A program made the translations under genes and the position numbers. Shown here piece after piece: positions 7,147 through 25,182 of a stretch of DNA of 26,831 nt. Location of the stretch: positions 1 through 26,831 of IMG/VR virus record IMGVR_UViG_3300006108_000050. One strand, given 5' to 3'. Numbering within the stretch: the stretch's first letter is position 1; each line of letters opens with the position of its first letter. This DNA comes from a virus. The notes beneath the pieces are model-generated. The model saw only the letters and a list, made by a program, of their open reading frames with translations, did no database searches and was not told the origin of the DNA.

Positions 7147-7650
7147 ATGTTTGTGGTTTATGGAAAAAACCAGTGCCAATATTGTGAAAAGACCAAGGCT
7201 CTCTTGACACAGAAGGGTCTTGAGTTTACATATCTGACTCTGGATAAGGATTTTACTCGCGAAGAACTTCTGGAAATGGCACCAGAAGCAAAGTCATTTC
7301 CTCAGATTTGGCGAGAAGACGAAGGTTATCTTTTTCACATTGGTGGTTATGATGATCTAGTAGAATATCTAGATACTGCCTTTGAAGAAGATGTTGTCTC
7401 TGCTCTGAATCGTGGCGGTATTGTGGTGGTGAAGTTCAACAAGTCGGATGGATCTGTTCGCACTATGCTTTGCACCAAGAATCCAGAGACTATTGCCGAG
7501 AACTATACTGCACCTGAAAAGAAGACTGATCGGGTTCGCAAGGAATCTGCTGATGTTGTGGCTGTGTTTGATCTAGAGAAGAACGATTGGCGCAGTTTTC
7601 GTCTAGATTCTGTGCTTGAATATATTGTGGTGGAGGAAGTTCATGACTGA
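7147..7650 (+). CDS. Glutaredoxin fused to a DUF2693-like SH3-fold domain
   Basis: 167 residues in two parts. Residues 1-80 are a glutaredoxin: active site CQYC at 10-13 near the first strand, SFPQIW with the cis-proline at 52, and GGYDDL in the glutathione-binding turn. Residues 85-167 read VVKFNKSDGSVRTMLCT...VFDLEKNDWRSFRLDSV, the pattern of DUF2693-type phage proteins (SH3-like barrel). Phage glutaredoxins supply electrons to ribonucleotide reductase; the joined domain may target it to a partner. In many phages these are separate genes. It overlaps the next gene by 8 nt. Confidence 0.85.
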   Translation: MFVVYGKNQCQYCEKTKALLTQKGLEFTYLTLDKDFTREELLEMAPEAKSFPQIWREDEGYLFHIGGYDDLVEYLDTAFEEDVVSALNRGGIVVVKFNKSDGSVRTMLCTKNPETIAENYTAPEKKTDRVRKESADVVAVFDLEKNDWRSFRLDSVLEYIVVEEVHD

Positions 7651-7807: not shown

Positions 7808-8256
7808 GTAATATTATAGAATATGCAAAGAGTGAACTTGACCGAATTGGTATGACCGAAGATGGTGATGAATATAATGCAATGGGTCGGAATGCCATTC
7901 TTGAACTGGTAGAAAAGTTTGCAGAACAAGGACATTCTGGGTTCTCAGCATCATATGTCACTAACTGTTTGGAGAAACTGCTTCGTTGGGAGCCTCTGTC
8001 TCCACTTACTGGAGAAGATTCAGAATGGACTCTTCTTGAGTATGATGATGAAACTCGTTATCAGAATAAGCGATGCAGTCGAGTATTCAAAGATTCTGAT
8101 GGTAGAGCATATGATATTGAAGGCAAGGTTTTCTGGGACTGGTATACAAATGAAGACGGCGAAAAGAGCAAGTCTTATTTCACCTGTAAAGAAGGTCGTG
8201 TATACATTGATTTCCCTTATGTTCCTACCACTGTATATGAGGAGCGCGTATCGTGA
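7804..8256 (+). CDS. Conserved phage protein, function unknown
   Basis: 150 residues. EQGHSGFSASYVTNCLEKLL, then EPLSPLTGEDSEW, CSRVFKDSDGRAYD and GRVYIDFPYVPTT form a well-conserved pattern seen in many tailed phages with no assigned role. The N-terminal half is helical, the C-terminal half beta-rich. It overlaps both neighbours (ATGA in, GTGA out) and precedes the sugar block in the same transcription unit. Confidence 0.8.
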   Translation: MSNIIEYAKSELDRIGMTEDGDEYNAMGRNAILELVEKFAEQGHSGFSASYVTNCLEKLLRWEPLSPLTGEDSEWTLLEYDDETRYQNKRCSRVFKDSDGRAYDIEGKVFWDWYTNEDGEKSKSYFTCKEGRVYIDFPYVPTTVYEERVS

Positions 8257-9218
8257 AGGCTTTGGTAACCGGTGCCGAGGGCTATATCGGTCGTATTCTC
8301 TGTAAGATTCTAAAAGATGAAGGCTGGCAGGTCTTTGGTCTTGATCTGAAAGAACCAGTTCATTGGGAACTTGATGAGACAGATTTTCATCATTACTATG
8401 TTGGTCATTATGGAAATCCTCGACCATATATTCAGCATAAGTATGATGTAATTTTCCATCTAGGTGCTAATAGTCTACTTGGTCCATCGGTAAAGAATCC
8501 TCTGGATTATTTTGATAATAATGTTTCTGGCATGATTGATATGCTAAAGAATATCAAAAACGAACAGCCTGATACACCAATCATCTTTGCATCATCTGCT
8601 GCAACTTATGGTGATCCTAACAAGAATATTGCTCTTAAAGAAGAAGATGCTGGTTATCCTATCAACCCTTATGGTTGGAGTAAATGGTTCGGTGAACGAA
8701 TCCTAGAACAAGCCTGTGAAGCATATGGTATGCGCGCATATTCTATGAGGTTCTTCAATGTCACCGGCAGTTATGCTGGTATGGGACAGGATTTGGATCA
8801 GCCACACATTCTCACCAAGATGTGTCAGGCGTCTATAAATAATGAGACATTCTACATCAATGGCAATGATTATGCCACCGGAGATGGAACTTGTGTTAGG
8901 GATTATGTCCATGTCTATGATGTCTGTCAGGCTCTTATTGCAGCCGCAAAGGAAATACAGACAGATGCTCCAACTTCATATACCGAATATAATGTAGGAT
9001 CCGGAGTTGGTTATTCTAATCTGGATATTGCTCGTTTTGTTCGTATGTATTATGGTCTAGTTTTTGACTATGCACCTAAGCGTCCCGGCGATCCCGGCTA
9101 TCTATTCTGTGATCCAACCGCAATCAGAACGGAACTAAAGTGGGAGCCCACAGTGGATATTTTTGGTATTATTACTTCCCATTATGAACATGTAAAGGCT
9201 AAAATGAATGAATATTGA
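8253..9218 (+). CDS. NAD-dependent sugar epimerase, GalE-like
   Basis: 321 residues of the extended short-chain dehydrogenase fold. TGAEGYIG (6-13) is the NAD-binding GxxGxxG, DVIFHLGA (65-72) the second strand, ASSAATYG (113-120) carries the catalytic Ser, YGWSK (140-144) is the YxxxK pair, and DGTCVRDYVHV with the RPGDPG end is typical of UDP-glucose/UDP-GlcNAc 4-epimerases. It acts on nucleotide sugars in the cytoplasm. It is not of the HldD heptose-epimerase type by motif. The GTG start overlaps the previous stop (GTGA). It is the first gene of the sugar block and overlaps the glycosyltransferase by 11 nt. Confidence 0.85.
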   Translation: MKALVTGAEGYIGRILCKILKDEGWQVFGLDLKEPVHWELDETDFHHYYVGHYGNPRPYIQHKYDVIFHLGANSLLGPSVKNPLDYFDNNVSGMIDMLKNIKNEQPDTPIIFASSAATYGDPNKNIALKEEDAGYPINPYGWSKWFGERILEQACEAYGMRAYSMRFFNVTGSYAGMGQDLDQPHILTKMCQASINNETFYINGNDYATGDGTCVRDYVHVYDVCQALIAAAKEIQTDAPTSYTEYNVGSGVGYSNLDIARFVRMYYGLVFDYAPKRPGDPGYLFCDPTAIRTELKWEPTVDIFGIITSHYEHVKAKMNEY

Positions 9219-10218
9219 TCCTAAGTTGTGGTCACGCAACGAAATGAATGCCAACTCTAAAGGTGGTTCAGAAATGATGATGGAGGGGATTATCTCTCGT
9301 CTTGATCCAAAGTTTCACGATAAGTTCCAGTTGATACCGTCTCGCGTAAGGGAGCTTCATGATGATCGCATAAGGATATTACATGTTCATGACCTTCCTT
9401 GGGACCAGCAGCTAAGTCATCTGGCTGATGCTAATAGTCGCAATCGGTTTCATAAGATTGTGTATTGCGGAAACTGGCAAATGCAACAGTTCCAGACCCA
9501 TCTGGGTATTCCACATGACCAGAAGACTTGTGTGATTGACACCGCTATTGATCCATTTGGTCCAATCAATAAGGGTGATACAAAGGAAGAGATTCGTCTG
9601 ATCTACACCAGCACACCACAGAGAGGACTATCTATTCTGGTTCCTGTGTTTGAGGAACTCTGTAAGCACCATGATAATCTAGTTCTGGATGTATTTTCCA
9701 GTTACAAGATTTATGGTTGGGCTGAGGCGGATCAGCAGTTCGAGGAACTGTTTGATCGGTGCCGCAACCATCCTAAGATCAACTATCATGGATTTGCTTC
9801 AAATGATGTTGTTCGTGAACATGTAGCAAAGGCTCATATCTTTGCTTATCCGTCTATCTGGCCAGAATGTAACAGTCGTTCATTGATTGAAGCTATGTCG
9901 GCTGGATGTGTTTGTATCCACCCTAACTATGCTGGGTTGACAGATACATCTGGTTCTGTTACAATCCAATATAACTGGGATAAGGACCAGAATGTTCATG
10001 TTAATATGTTCTATGCCGTCCTAAATGATACCATCAATCGGATGCAAGAAACTGATATGTATCCATATCTACAGTTCCAGAAGACTTTTGCGGATTATCG
10101 GTACAACTGGGATAGGATTGCTAATCAGTGGAACGCCCTCTGCACAGCATTGCTACATGAATACGAAGGTAAGGATCTAAAGGTTCCTGCTGCACAGTTT
10201 AGTTATAGGACTTCGTGA
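9208..10218 (+). CDS. GT-B fold glycosyltransferase
   Basis: 336 residues. The N-terminal half has NSKGGSEMM (acceptor-side glycine loop) and ILHVHDLPWD. The C-terminal half has IYTSTPQRGLSILV and the donor-site motif ECNSRSLIEAMSAGC (Glu220 to Glu228, the E-x7-E of GT4-type retaining enzymes), then HPNYAGLTD. It would move a sugar from a nucleotide donor to an acceptor; neither is known. Its place between an epimerase and heptose genes suggests it uses the sugar they make. No signal peptide or membrane segment is seen, so it works in the cytoplasm or at the inner membrane face. Confidence 0.85.
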   Translation: MNIDPKLWSRNEMNANSKGGSEMMMEGIISRLDPKFHDKFQLIPSRVRELHDDRIRILHVHDLPWDQQLSHLADANSRNRFHKIVYCGNWQMQQFQTHLGIPHDQKTCVIDTAIDPFGPINKGDTKEEIRLIYTSTPQRGLSILVPVFEELCKHHDNLVLDVFSSYKIYGWAEADQQFEELFDRCRNHPKINYHGFASNDVVREHVAKAHIFAYPSIWPECNSRSLIEAMSAGCVCIHPNYAGLTDTSGSVTIQYNWDKDQNVHVNMFYAVLNDTINRMQETDMYPYLQFQKTFADYRYNWDRIANQWNALCTALLHEYEGKDLKVPAAQFSYRTS

Positions 10219-10529
10219 TGTCATATTCATTATATAGAACAAGAGATGGTGCTGGAGATAGCGGTCTGATGAGTCTTGCTCGTATTCCGGCTTTTGATCA
10301 AGATACCGGTAAGGTTGTCTCGGTAGAAGAGATTGAGAATGCCGAGCCTCGTGTTGGTGCTGTTATGCGAGTTGGTTCTCATTATGCCAGATCATATTCG
10401 GCACAGGACTGGTGGCAGACCACACCCATCACAGAGATTTTAGAAGAACGAACCGATCCAGATAATCCTGAGTATCTCTATGTCCGTTTCAAGACAGGAA
10501 ACTCTGAATATGAATGGACAAGAAATTGA
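10218..10529 (+). CDS. Hypothetical phage protein within the sugar block
   Basis: 103 residues, polar, beta-rich, with SYSAQDWWQTTPITEILEE and a C-terminal strand YLYVRFKTGNSEYEW. I recall similar small proteins in other phages but no function. ATG 10218 overlaps the TGA stop upstream by one base and lies 7 nt after AGGA; the GTG at 10215 is the alternative. The end overlaps the kinase gene by 16 nt, so it is translated with the sugar genes without necessarily acting on sugars. Confidence 0.7.
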   Translation: MSYSLYRTRDGAGDSGLMSLARIPAFDQDTGKVVSVEEIENAEPRVGAVMRVGSHYARSYSAQDWWQTTPITEILEERTDPDNPEYLYVRFKTGNSEYEWTRN

Positions 10530-11467
10530 TCCTAGCTAAAGCGCCTCTTCGCATCTCAGCGTTTGGTGGTTCATCCGACATTCCTGCTCATTATCTTCAG
10601 TGGGGTGGAGCAACGATTTCTCTAGCTATTGATAAGTTCGTATATGTTGCTGTTGGTAAGACTCCACAGAATCATATTAAACTTAATTATTCTAAACAGG
10701 AATGTGTGACTAATGTTGACGATATTCAGCATGATATTGTTAGAAATACATTAAAGTTTTTTAATATTTCTTCTAATATTGAGATTACAACCTTTGCAGA
10801 TATTCCAACTATTGGTACTGGACTTGGTGGCTCGTCAGCATTTACCTCTGCACTTATTTCTGCATTGGTGCAATATTTAGGATTAAAGCCCTATAATGAA
10901 TATGAACTTGCAGAAACTGCCTGCCACACTGAGATCAATCTTTGTGGTTTCAAAATCGGAAAGCAAGATGCATATGCAAGTGCATTTGGTGGTATGAACT
11001 ATATTAAATATCTACAGAGTGATGGTGTGATTGTTTCTAAGATGGATCCAAATGGGATTGATTCTTGCATGGTTTTAATTCCAACGAATATTCAACGACA
11101 TTCTTCTGATATTCTTGAGAAAATTGATTTTGATAAGAAGTCGCATATTATTAGAGAACTTTCTAATATGGCTGACCAACAATCTCAATATCTTCCTTCA
11201 TTTGATAATTATGGCTTTCTGCTCAATAAGGCATGGGAATTAAAGAAGCAGACAGAAAATTCAATTAGTAATCCAGAAATTGACCTTTTATATGATCGTT
11301 GCATTTCTGCTGGTGCATCAGGCGCTAAACTTCTTGGATCTGGTGGCGGTGGCTATATGTTAGCCATGACAGGTAATAAATCAAAGATTAAGAATGAGTT
11401 TTCAGATAGAGTTTGTTTAGATGTTAATATTTCTAATGATGGAGCAAGAGTAGTTTATGCAGATTAA
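10514..11467 (+). CDS. hddA: GHMP kinase, D-glycero-D-manno-heptose 7-phosphate kinase-like
   Basis: 317 residues. RISAFGGSSDIP (13-24) matches the HddA opening RISFxGGGTDxP; GTGLGGSSA (101-109) is the GHMP ATP loop; GKQDAYA (149-155) and GASGAKLLGSGGGGYML (267-283) are the C-terminal motifs. HddA phosphorylates heptose 7-phosphate at C1. The related fucokinase/galactokinase group is less likely because the glycine pattern and length fit HddA. From about 10675 to the end the codons become very AT-rich (AAT, ATT, TTA), unlike the first 50 codons and the neighbours, hinting at mosaic origin. It overlaps the SIS gene by 11 nt. Confidence 0.85.
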   Translation: MDKKLILAKAPLRISAFGGSSDIPAHYLQWGGATISLAIDKFVYVAVGKTPQNHIKLNYSKQECVTNVDDIQHDIVRNTLKFFNISSNIEITTFADIPTIGTGLGGSSAFTSALISALVQYLGLKPYNEYELAETACHTEINLCGFKIGKQDAYASAFGGMNYIKYLQSDGVIVSKMDPNGIDSCMVLIPTNIQRHSSDILEKIDFDKKSHIIRELSNMADQQSQYLPSFDNYGFLLNKAWELKKQTENSISNPEIDLLYDRCISAGASGAKLLGSGGGGYMLAMTGNKSKIKNEFSDRVCLDVNISNDGARVVYAD

Positions 11468-12044
11468 AACCCTTGTTCAATATACAGAACAACTATATGA
11501 TGCACTCAGTGGGGTAGAGCCACAACCCATTGAAGATGCTATTAAGATTCTGACCAATGCCTTCGATATTGGTATGAATATCTATTCCTGTGGCAATGGT
11601 GGTTCCGCTGCAATCTCAGAGCACCTGGTTTGTGATTGTGTGAAGGGTGTGGCGCGTGACACTCATTTCTATCCAAGAATCGTATCTCTTCCGTCAAATG
11701 GCTCTCTGATGACTGCTATCGCCAATGATATTGGATATGATGAAGTATTTGCAAAGCAACTGGAATGGTCTGCTTCGGCTGGAGAAGTTCTAATCGTAAT
11801 CAGTTCTAGTGGCAAGAGTCCTAATATTGTAAAGGCTTTGAATGAAGCAAAGAAACTTCACATGAAAACTATTGCTATTGTGGGGTTTACTGGCGGACCA
11901 TGCAAAGACTTGGCTGATGTGTGTATTCATATTCCAGCCAAGAACTATGGTATTGTAGAAGATGCCAGTCAAGCCATCATGCATTACATTGCTCAAACTA
12001 TTCGCGTTAGACATTCTGCGAGAGATGAGGATCTTATTCTGTGA
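11457..12044 (+). CDS. gmhA: SIS-domain phosphosugar isomerase, GmhA-like
   Basis: 195 residues. CGNGGSAAISEH (45-56) and VISSSGKSPNIVKAL (114-128) are the two phosphate-binding SIS loops, and the overall order matches GmhA (sedoheptulose 7-phosphate isomerase), the first step to activated heptose. Linkage to an HddA-like kinase strongly supports that role. By hand alignment with E. coli GmhA, Glu65 corresponds to Asp60 and the catalytic His180 region reads VEDASQ (167-172), with no His there; His176 follows. Activity is therefore uncertain. Soluble and cytoplasmic. It overlaps neighbours on both sides. Confidence 0.8.
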   Translation: MQIKTLVQYTEQLYDALSGVEPQPIEDAIKILTNAFDIGMNIYSCGNGGSAAISEHLVCDCVKGVARDTHFYPRIVSLPSNGSLMTAIANDIGYDEVFAKQLEWSASAGEVLIVISSSGKSPNIVKALNEAKKLHMKTIAIVGFTGGPCKDLADVCIHIPAKNYGIVEDASQAIMHYIAQTIRVRHSARDEDLIL

Positions 12045-12301
12045 CGAAAATCATACATGTCAATCGGCAACACATTGCAATGAATGCCAAGGATGGTAAG
12101 AATCGTCCTGTGTATACTATCAAGGTTGCAGGTAAAACTCGTTATGCCCGTGAAGTTATGATTGAAGGACCATCGCGATTGGTGTATGATGGAACACAGT
12201 TGAGTTGTGGCGCTCGTGCATGGATCGAAACCGAAGCAGAACTTCAACTTATTGATGAAATGTCCTTTAGAGAGGCGAGAAACTATGAAGATTGCGCTTG
12301 A
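12041..12301 (+). CDS. Conserved phage protein, function unknown
   Basis: 86 residues with a GTG start overlapping the SIS stop (GTGA). IIHVNRQHIAMNAKDGKNRP, then GKTRYAREVMIEGPSRLVYD and LSCGARAWIET are strongly conserved in many unrelated tailed phages, usually in early or metabolic regions. It is probably beta-rich and soluble. Nothing links it to sugar chemistry except position. Confidence 0.8.
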   Translation: MTKIIHVNRQHIAMNAKDGKNRPVYTIKVAGKTRYAREVMIEGPSRLVYDGTQLSCGARAWIETEAELQLIDEMSFREARNYEDCA

Positions 12302-12779
12302 CATCGATGGCGTCATTTCTGATTTCAAGATGGAGACAGAAACCAAGGAAGAGTGGCAAAAGAAGTTTCCGCACTTCGTCCAAGACGGTGGATTTCTCAA
12401 ACTTCCTGTAAAAGAAGGTGCATATGAACTTGTAGAGTTTCTGGAGATGTGTCTGGAACTTGGTGTCATCGAGGATGTGTTCTATCTTTCGTCTGCTGGA
12501 GGCATCGATCCAGAGCATCTGGCTGAGATCACCGAGCAGAAGATCCAATGGCTTCAGAATAATGAGTTTCCGGACTGGACACCTGTTGTTGTTCATCGCA
12601 AAGGACTCAAGAAGCTTTGGGCTAAAGAAGGAACCATTCTGATTGATGATCAAGAATGCAATGTGCAGGACTTCCTAGATGCAGGAGGCGATGCTATTCC
12701 ATATAGAAACGCAGCAATCACAATGGACGTTCTCAAGCTGCTATTGTGGGACGAACTGGTAGGTAAGTTTTATGGGTGA
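12285..12779 (+). CDS. HAD-superfamily phosphatase, 5'-nucleotidase-like
   Basis: 164 residues. Motif I IALDIDGVISD (Asp6, Asp8), a motif II strand ending in YLSSAGG (68-73), a Lys-containing loop HRKGLKK (104-110) and motif IV ILIDDQECN (Asp121, Asp122) give a complete HAD site. The arrangement resembles 5'(3')-deoxyribonucleotidases. In this operon it could be the phosphatase that removes the C7 phosphate from heptose 1,7-bisphosphate (GmhB role), but the zinc-binding Cys loop of true GmhB is absent, so this is inference. ATG 12285 lies inside the end of the previous gene. Confidence 0.75.
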   Translation: MKIALDIDGVISDFKMETETKEEWQKKFPHFVQDGGFLKLPVKEGAYELVEFLEMCLELGVIEDVFYLSSAGGIDPEHLAEITEQKIQWLQNNEFPDWTPVVVHRKGLKKLWAKEGTILIDDQECNVQDFLDAGGDAIPYRNAAITMDVLKLLLWDELVGKFYG

Positions 12780-14465: not shown

Positions 14466-15014
14466 ATGGCTTATATTGAAAACCCCGATAATGTCTATGG
14501 TGGTGCTATTGTCTCTCGTAATGCTAAGGTCTATGGTAATGCTAGTGTCTATGGTGATGCTAGGGTCTATGGTAATGCTAGGGTCTCTGGTGATGCTAGG
14601 GTCTATGGTGATGCTATTGTCTATGGTGATGCTAGTGTCTATGGTGGTGCTATTGTCTCTCGTAATGCTAAGGTCTATGGTAATGCTAGTGTCTATGGTG
14701 ATGCTATTGTCTATGGTAATGCTAGTGTCTATGGTAAAGCTGATATTCAATCGAATGATGATTGGTTCAGTTTCATCTATCAGAAAAAGACTCTAACTGG
14801 TTATCGTTCTAGGAACAAACTTGGTTATGAATTGAATGTTAATGGTCTTGGTGTTGCTATTGATGATCTGGAATCCGATGCAATTCCTTTTGTAAAGAGT
14901 CTTATTAACAAATTTACCCCATTGACTAATCCAGAAAAGGAATATATTGAAAAGATTATTAGTGATCTGGAAAAACAACTAGATGATGCTAAGAATAAAC
15001 TGAAGAGTCTATAG
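14466..15014 (+). CDS. Hexapeptide-repeat (left-handed beta-helix) protein
   Basis: 182 residues. Residues 9-93 are about fourteen six-residue units of the form VYGDA(R/S/I), with variants VSRNAK and VYGGAI; this is the hexapeptide pattern that folds as a left-handed beta-helix, as in sugar acyltransferases. No acyltransferase active-site His is seen among the repeats, so it is more likely structural or a binding surface. Residues 100-155 are a mixed domain and 155-182 a charged helix (EKEYIEKIISDLEKQLDDAK). AAGGAA precedes ATG 14466. It has its own promoter. The coding DNA is an 18-bp tandem repeat array and can change copy number. Confidence 0.8.
   Translation: MAYIENPDNVYGGAIVSRNAKVYGNASVYGDARVYGNARVSGDARVYGDAIVYGDASVYGGAIVSRNAKVYGNASVYGDAIVYGNASVYGKADIQSNDDWFSFIYQKKTLTGYRSRNKLGYELNVNGLGVAIDDLESDAIPFVKSLINKFTPLTNPEKEYIEKIISDLEKQLDDAKNKLKSL
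14492..14706 (+). repeat. 18-bp coding repeat array with a 71-bp exact duplication
   Basis: Units of 18 bp (GTCTATGGTGATGCTAGG type) encode the hexapeptides. Bases 14492-14562 and 14636-14706 are identical over 71 bp; the offset is 144 bp, exactly eight units, so a block of the array was copied in frame. Confidence 0.9.
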
Positions 15015-23556: not shown

Positions 23557-23772
23557 ATGAGTGTTTTGAAGGAAATCTTTCTTTTTATTATTGGTCTTTG
23601 GTGGCTTTGGCTTATTGTGGCACTTTTTGCTATTATCACAGTAGCATCCGACCATGATGCGACAACTTCACGGGTGGGGTCTTCCATTTGTTATTCAAAA
23701 GGTATGATTCGGATTACCACCGATGCAGGATTTAGGTGTGTTGATCCCAAGAATCTGGTCGAGGTGAAGTGA
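23557..23772 (+). CDS. Small membrane-anchored protein, 71 residues
   Basis: ATG 23557 after TTGGAG. A hydrophobic helix at about 7-29 (IFLFIIGLWWLWLIVALFAI) anchors it, with the rest (ICYSKGMIRITTDAGFRCVD) having two Cys that could pair outside the membrane. Family unknown. Coupled to the nucleotidyltransferase by overlap. Confidence 0.7.
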   Translation: MSVLKEIFLFIIGLWWLWLIVALFAIITVASDHDATTSRVGSSICYSKGMIRITTDAGFRCVDPKNLVEVK

Positions 23773-24708: not shown

Positions 24709-25182
24709 ATGAATAAGTTTGTAATTGCTGCTGCCGCTTTGGTTGCATTTTCTACCCCTGCTATGGCTAAGGACGCCTTTACTGGTACTCGTGTTGAAGT
24801 GGCTGCTGGTTATAATGATGTAACCAATGTTCCTTCAAACCGTAATTTTGCTTATGGCGTCGATGCTGGATATGATGTTAAGATTCTTGGTCCTGTCACG
24901 GCAGGTCTTGAAGTTGGTCTTGACAATATTCTAGATCGTCGTGATGTGAATGTTGGTGGCCGTCTGGGTGTGGCACTAAATGGTCATACTCAGGTGTTTG
25001 CTGATGTTGGTTATGATAATTTCCGCGATCTTGCTGCACACAATCTTGAGGGTGTTCGGTTTGGTGGTGGTCTTCAGATCAATGTTGTTGGTCCTGTATA
25101 TACTCTAGTTGAATACCATCGCACTGATCTTGGCACCACCAAGAAGAATGCTGTTGCCGCTGGTGTAGGTATTCGTTTTTAA
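24709..25182 (+). CDS. Outer-membrane beta-barrel protein with signal peptide
   Basis: 157 residues. MNKFVIAAAALVAFSTPAMA is a textbook Sec signal peptide with an AxA site after residue 20. The mature 137 residues alternate polar and hydrophobic in glycine/aromatic-turned strands (RVEVAAGYNDV, GLEVGLDNI, QVFADVGYDN, GVRFGGGLQI, YTLVEYHRTD) and end GVGIRF, a Bam-recognised terminal Phe. This fits a small OmpX/OmpA-type eight-strand barrel in the host outer membrane. A phage-encoded barrel may block phage adsorption or alter the surface. GGAG is about 10 nt before ATG 24709. A terminator follows. It may have been taken from a host. Confidence 0.85.
   Translation: MNKFVIAAAALVAFSTPAMAKDAFTGTRVEVAAGYNDVTNVPSNRNFAYGVDAGYDVKILGPVTAGLEVGLDNILDRRDVNVGGRLGVALNGHTQVFADVGYDNFRDLAAHNLEGVRFGGGLQINVVGPVYTLVEYHRTDLGTTKKNAVAAGVGIRF

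Follow-up and report, generated by a model that had tools for sequence, protein, structure and literature searches.

Gene content and layout of the block

The DNA analyzed here (hereafter, the window) is a stretch of 26,831 nucleotides, positions 1 to 26,831 of the IMG/VR virus record IMGVR_UViG_3300006108_000050. Its T4-like genes include those for PhoH, a glutaredoxin and a T4-type RNase H. Between positions 8253 and 12779, seven open reading frames (ORFs) on the plus strand form a translationally coupled run, each overlapping the neighboring one by 4 to 20 bases (Table 1). An original prediction, made from the sequence alone, described this run as a phage-encoded activated-heptose pathway with its own glycosyltransferase (GT). 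The epimerase, GT, kinase, SIS and HAD genes on which it relied are all present, on one strand and overlapping, with family matches far above chance. The HxGH nucleotidyltransferase (NTase) that it noted at 23772 corresponds to a separate ORF with an intact HAGH motif (residues 15–18). For every pathway member the NCBIfam score is under the curated equivalog cut-off, so that the protein names used here denote families rather than proven activities. The most likely start of the HAD gene is the ATG at 12285, the listed ORF start being the GTG at 12207. One of the two short coupled ORFs, that of 104 amino acids (aa), is kept in the related contigs L002 (90%) and L014 (69%). A megablast search of the window against phage records gave no match.

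Table 1. Genes of the coupled block and associated genes in the window
Feature	Coordinates	Strand	Supporting matches and remarks
Glutaredoxin-type protein	7147..7650	+	phrog_22 thioredoxin domain 9e-20; upstream of the block, flanking marker and no pathway enzyme
GalE-like NAD-dependent epimerase, 321 aa	8253..9218	+	PF01370 1.1e-42; GxxGxxG and YxxxK motifs
GT-B (GT4-like) glycosyltransferase, 336 aa	9208..10218	+	PF00534 6.6e-10; phrog_2170 2.9e-40
Short ORF, 104 aa, no function assigned	10215..10529	+	overlaps both adjoining genes
HddA-like GHMP sugar-1-kinase, 317 aa	10514..11467	+	NCBIfam HddA 3.6e-36; GHMP_kinases_N 4e-12
GmhA-like SIS isomerase, H-D-E-H subtype, 195 aa	11457..12044	+	TIGR00441 1.1e-32; SIS_2 3e-24
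Short ORF, 86 aa, no function assigned	12041..12301	+	phrog_8676 1.5e-23; overlaps GmhA and HAD genes
Small HAD phosphatase, NT5C-like, 164 aa, candidate 7-phosphatase	12285..12779	+	phrog_2643 2.6e-14
HxGH NTase, RfaE-C/TagD superfamily, 185 aa	23769..24326	+	TIGR02199 2e-20; TIGR01518 7.6e-18; phrog_7878 3.1e-38; CTP_transf_like 9e-16

A GT-HddA-GmhA core recurs in viral loci

An alignment-based scan yielded 79 viral HddA loci for comparison. GmhA is found in 76 and a GT in 72 of these, followed by glutaredoxin (59/79), the RNase H gene rnh (50/79) and GalE (23/79). An NTase is present within the fetched flanks of 10 loci, a window-type HAD in four and GmhB in two. Based on these counts, GT-HddA-GmhA forms the core of the block, whereas the epimerase, phosphatase and NTase vary; the GalE-like epimerase, found in just 23 loci, is accessory. 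In the isolated Caulobacter phage Cr30, the genes for glutaredoxin, epimerase, GT, HddA and GmhA are arranged as in the window, and the NTase lies close to rnh at the opposite end of the linear record. The block is also kept, whole or in part, in L002, L003, L004–L007, L010 and L014. Close relatives of the window phage include the IMGVR contigs 3300006120_000477 and 3300025470_000019. Thus, the comparison across related phages that the original prediction called for bears out a recurrent unit, in the gene order of Cr30 and in the core of the 79 loci. Contamination as the source of the block was ruled out by the T4-like genes flanking it and by the synteny in Cr30 and many contigs. From a further record, MT835644 (L020, 'Bacteriophage sp.' from faeces), only GmhB and HddC sequences were taken, to seed searches, because its high-GC glycan genes look bacterial.

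Near HddA, the block is interrupted by unrelated, homing-endonuclease-like ORFs on the opposite strand in L002 (8330–9202, minus) and L014 (9190–9885, minus). The N-terminus of HddA in L014 (10001–10060) appears frame-shifted relative to other copies, which reflects either an error in sequencing or a genuine indel. The window HddA is 99.7% identical to that of the L002/L003 relatives, versus 87% for GalE, 82% for the GT and 74–76% for GmhA, and its GC content (35%) is below that of the adjoining genes. This far higher identity, combined with the lower GC content, suggests that the window block is a mosaic in which single genes may have recombined recently.

The HxGH nucleotidyltransferase is physically linked to the block in relatives

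The window NTase scores slightly better against RfaE domain II (TIGR02199, 73 bits; cut-off 181) than against TagD (65 bits), and in its relative from L281 the TagD score exceeds that of RfaE domain II. Two fusions connect this family to the block. In LR756511, a single ORF of 458 aa encodes HddA followed by the NTase, and in the Synechococcus phage SynMITS9220M01 one ORF joining HAD and NTase is placed between those for GmhA and an epimerase; in both fusions, HPGY replaces HxGH. Complete NTase-GmhB-(GalE)-GT-HddA-GmhA runs are found in L195, L270, L281, G042 and G043, and NTase-(GalE)-GT-HddA-GmhA in L269, L277 and L282, with L272 alike as far as HddA. An NTase is present on eight of the 17 HddA contigs of at least 30 kb, including all four with a window-type HAD, versus 136 of 50,697 phage records, a comparison that ignores relatedness and genome size. 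There was no convincing NTase match in four phages that carry the GT and lack HddA. HddC-type NTP_transferase (PF00483) had no match in the window block in a Pfam search; it is seen in many bacterial loci but in only one of the 79 viral ones. Given the HddA-NTase and HAD-NTase fusions and the complete operons of relatives, the distant NTase of the window probably belongs to the block pathway. For the same reasons, an unrelated glycerol-3-phosphate enzyme is not favored, although the distribution of the NTase family exceeds that of the block.

Kinase, phosphatase, glycosyltransferase and epimerase

HddA is the best NCBIfam match of the kinase (125 of 600 bits). The nearest solved relatives are 3k85, WcbL (4usm/4usk) and 4n3o, and residues R13 and D152, equivalent to the catalytic Arg13 and Asp163 of WcbL, are both kept, in line with the predicted HddA-like identity at the family level. 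WcbL appears to bind the alpha anomer (PMC4691232).

The closest family of the window HAD, phrog_2643, comprises 5'-3' deoxyribonucleotidases, and its homologue in L004 matches NT5C just below the cut-off. No NCBIfam model matched the window protein, including those for GmhB (TIGR00213, NF006506 and HAD-IIIA). In its structural model (predicted local distance difference test score, pLDDT, of 89), the best fold matches, HisB-N and the T4 Pnkp phosphatase, are weak. The HAD gene directly follows GmhA in L004, L014, L205 and L206. By comparison, the GmhB copies of L281, L195 and L270 match models of heptose 1,7-bisphosphate phosphatases, mostly below the cut-off.

The AlphaFold model of the GT, of moderate confidence (mean pLDDT of 73), matches GT-B enzymes such as TarM, SdgB and PimA with E-values of about 1e-8 to 1e-10. 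Phages DLP6, phiM12, RHph_I1_18 and vB_OspM_OC have homologues of this GT but no HddA matches; thus, the GT is not bound to heptose genes in every phage. The epimerase scores 204 bits against NCBIfam GalE and 85 of 274 bits against the heptose 6-epimerase HldD (TIGR02197), which places it outside HldD.

A candidate pathway to an activated heptose

Taken together, the block probably encodes a GDP-heptose-type pathway to a sugar nucleotide and supplies it to the phage's own GT-B enzyme, a judgment that leaves the acceptor aside. Building on the observed gene identities, coupling, conservation and fusions, we infer each reaction of the scheme as well as its sugar and nucleotide, including the heptose product. 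The SIS protein would convert sedoheptulose 7-phosphate to heptose 7-phosphate, which the HddA-like kinase would phosphorylate at C1 in the alpha configuration. The distal phosphate would be taken off by a HAD phosphatase, GmhB-like in some relatives; here, this role might fall to the NT5C-like HAD or to a host GmhB. The HxGH NTase, in the place of HddC, would add the nucleotide, the GalE-like enzyme would perhaps epimerize the product, and the GT would transfer the sugar to an acceptor. GT4-type enzymes retain the anomer, so that an alpha donor would be expected to give an alpha linkage.

Several points weigh against this scheme. The viral contigs may all be fragments. The window NTase is 11 kb away from the block, most viral HddA loci have no NTase nearby, and the NTase family is mostly found outside the block, with HddA in one of the 80 best NTase loci. 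HddA yields the alpha anomer, whereas the known HldE-C takes the beta one; to our knowledge, no described pathway pairs HddA with an NTase of the HldE-C type. The role of the NTase as an HldE-C-type pathway member, as originally proposed, thus draws support from the fusions and complete operons of relatives and is weakened by the anomer mismatch and by the spread of the family. As for the HAD, GmhB was rejected by sequence in favor of NT5C/phrog_2643, the fold search being too weak to decide, and the original reading of it as the C7 phosphatase is not supported as it stood.

The SIS protein also departs from the expected enzyme. GmhA is its best family (TIGR00441, 113 bits versus a cut-off of 209). 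The metal site of GmhA, formed by H64, E68, Q175 and H183 in B. pseudomallei, is completely conserved in orthologues (PMC5705639). The corresponding residues of the window protein are H56, D60, E168 and H176, invariant across nine phage copies. Thus, GmhA has H-E-Q-H and the window SIS H-D-E-H, with two of the four ligands changed (E to D and Q to E), and an Ile occupies the position of the GmhA channel residue D61. A set of bacterial SIS relatives offers a counterweight, although it was gathered with phage queries and its proportions do not mirror all bacteria. Within 6 kb, HddA accompanies 28 of the 65 members with H-D-E-H or H-D-E-S, and an NTase accompanies none; for the 13 members with H-E-Q-H, HddA is near one and an NTase near four. 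In several bacterial loci, the H-D-E-H protein is the sole SIS protein beside HddA and an HddC-GmhB fusion. We therefore read H-D-E-H as a putative GmhA-like subtype belonging to clusters of the GDP-heptose kind. The GmhA assignment accordingly has in its favor the best family match, at a score below the cut-off, and the position of the subtype in the GmhA slot of HddA/HddC/GmhB clusters, and against it the metal site. In a similar manner, the claim that the phage makes and uses a nucleoside diphosphate (NDP)-heptose gains from a recurrent sugar-activation unit with a likely NTase and loses from the HAD, the SIS metal site and the anomer pairing.

The altered metal site raises the question of whether the SIS protein and the kinase act on a non-heptose sugar phosphate, yielding a different NDP-sugar. 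We consider this unlikely. The completely conserved H-E-Q-H of GmhA, the equivalog scores that all fall below the cut-offs and a proposal of UDP-arabinose for the SIS/NTP-transferase protein of phage RB69 (PMC6024577) would fit such a reading, but the H-D-E-H protein fills the GmhA slot of bacterial HddA, HddC and GmhB clusters, GmhB-like phosphatases occur within the same run in phage relatives, and the kinase has HddA as its best match with the catalytic Arg and Asp kept. Less probable still is a block consisting of GT-HddA-GmhA (plus the epimerase) alone, relying on a host phosphatase and NTase, with the window HAD and NTase serving nucleotide metabolism or another modification. At most viral HddA loci the nearby genes are indeed just GT-HddA-GmhA, the HAD looks like a 5'-3' deoxyribonucleotidase, and many phages that lack the block encode an NTase of this family, which is also found beside genes of TET oxygenases and TET-associated glycosyltransferases (TAGT). 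This is opposed by the HddA-NTase and HAD-NTase fusions, the complete NTase-GmhB-GT-HddA-GmhA runs and the position of the HAD directly after GmhA in several lineages, every one with an NTase on the contig.

Acceptor of the sugar

For the GDP-heptose-type pathway favored here, the target had been left open between host lipopolysaccharide (LPS), the virion and something else. To these, DNA is added as a candidate with specific evidence, namely dCMP hydroxymethylase and TET/JBP genes. Our tentative first guess is that the sugar goes onto hydroxymethylated pyrimidines in the DNA of the phage itself, a reading placed narrowly ahead of host-surface or virion glycans. A gp42-type dCMP hydroxymethylase (287 bits to 1b49) is encoded on the block contigs G024, G042 and G043, which represent two block-bearing lineages; in G042, it is about 19 kb apart from the complete NTase-GmhB-GT-HddA-GmhA operon. 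In a genome search, two genes annotated as SNF2 DNA repair matched TET/JBP (PF12851, cut-off 34.9), one in Cr30 (NC_025422, 59356–60681, L288; 77 bits) and one in DLP6 (27179–28507, L289; 70 bits). Given these oxygenase matches, Cr30 and DLP6 may hydroxylate their own DNA. Among 42 viral TET loci, 20 have an NTase within 6 kb of TET. TET-locus NTases join the HddA-block NTases at 70% identity (single linkage), and in L309 (10001–12545) the TET, TAGT (PF20691) and NTase genes overlap. Operons of TET/JBP, a GT (TAGT or GT4-like) and HxGH NTase occur without the heptose block in L295, L303 and L309. For RB69, the SIS/NTP-transferase protein has been proposed to supply sugar for DNA (PMC6024577).

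Other results count against DNA as the acceptor. Neither hydroxymethylase nor TET was found in the window fragment, and the 128-kb block contig G020 showed no TET and no thymidylate-synthase-family gene. The thymidylate synthase of Cr30 was considered as a hydroxymethylase and rejected, being a true thymidylate synthase. Apart from Cr30, TET contigs do not carry the block. A TAGT gene in DLP6 and a weak TAGT-like gene in Cr30 (20 bits, below the cut-off) lie near TET and could serve the TET product, so that DNA is not necessarily the target of the block GT in Cr30. No cytosine C5 methylase that might partner TET was found in Cr30, DLP6 and others, and the TET protein matched no solved structure in a profile search.

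The sugar from the same pathway might instead end up on a virion protein or on a glycan of the host surface (LPS core, O-antigen or lipid), where it could, for instance, prevent superinfection or change adsorption; we regard this as possible, if somewhat doubtful. The GT model resembles GT4 glycan-synthesis enzymes. In SynMITS9220M01, the homologous genes are part of an extensive glycan cluster containing several GTs, and their announcement described them as LPS genes related to heptose (PMC7378029). Pelagimyophage GTs have been interpreted as O-chain modifiers (PMC7029224), and Cr30 uses as its receptor the S-layer, which depends on LPS O-antigen (PMC5749776). By contrast, the block of the window clade has a single GT, and its neighbors are early genes of DNA metabolism (glutaredoxin, rnh, PhoH) rather than tail genes, and dCMP hydroxymethylase occurs in two block lineages. 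A more specific combination appears rather unlikely, namely that the HddA and HxGH-NTase pair is a convergent counterpart of HldE and that the GT-B enzyme puts heptose on hydroxymethylated phage pyrimidines, producing a heptosylated DNA base.

Comparison with known systems

Heptose gene sets are already annotated in phages (Cr30 record; PMC7378029) and are usually classed as LPS genes. The closest known example is the Cr30 block (gp006–gp010 plus gp178), with the glutaredoxin-epimerase-GT-HddA-GmhA order, the NTase near rnh and 39–50% protein identity. Unlike the window, Cr30 has no window-type HAD and possesses a TET/JBP oxygenase and a weak TAGT-like gene; its products are known from annotation. 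SynMITS9220M01 (PMC7378029) has GT-HddA-GmhA-[HAD-NTase]-epimerase in one run. It differs in the fused HAD/NTase, the HPGY motif of the NTase and the large glycan cluster, with about 30% identity for the kinase and SIS and 45% for the NTase. Bacterial HddA/HddC/GmhB clusters share the SIS isomerase, including the H-D-E-H subtype, and the GHMP kinase, but in the window the HxGH NTase replaces HddC and an NT5C-like HAD is present instead of GmhB. The ADP-heptose pathway with the bifunctional HldE has in common the HldE-C-type NTase, and LR756511 likewise joins kinase and NTase in one chain. However, the window kinase is a GHMP kinase (HddA) rather than an HldE kinase, and the GT matches GT4-type models, not the LPS heptosyltransferase family. 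The arabinosyl-hydroxymethylcytosine (ara-hmC) DNA modification of the T4-like RB69 similarly involves SIS and NTP-transferase domains that have been proposed to supply a GT-B enzyme active on hmC DNA, whereas its genes are of a pentose rather than heptose type and the part of the source at hand shows no GHMP kinase (PMC6024577).

Within the open-licence literature, where absence is weak evidence, we found neither the HddA and HxGH-NTase pairing or fusion, nor the H-D-E-H SIS subtype in phages, nor links of the block to dCMP hydroxymethylase and TET operons. With either acceptor, the recurrent pairing, fusion included, is a candidate new route to an activated sugar. If DNA is the acceptor, the result would be base modification of a new class, bearing on restriction and CRISPR escape; if the surface is, the block would be a self-sufficient receptor-editing unit. 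Cr30 on Caulobacter, a laboratory phage and strain, makes the pathway testable.

Two further features of the window lie outside the block. The protein encoded at 14466–15014 has a repetitive N-terminal half (with repeats such as VYGDARVYGNARVSGDA), and a repetitive ORF is present on the opposite strand as well. At 24709–25182, the window encodes a protein of 157 aa whose start looks like a signal peptide and which is similar to a small outer membrane protein, unusual for a T4-like phage.

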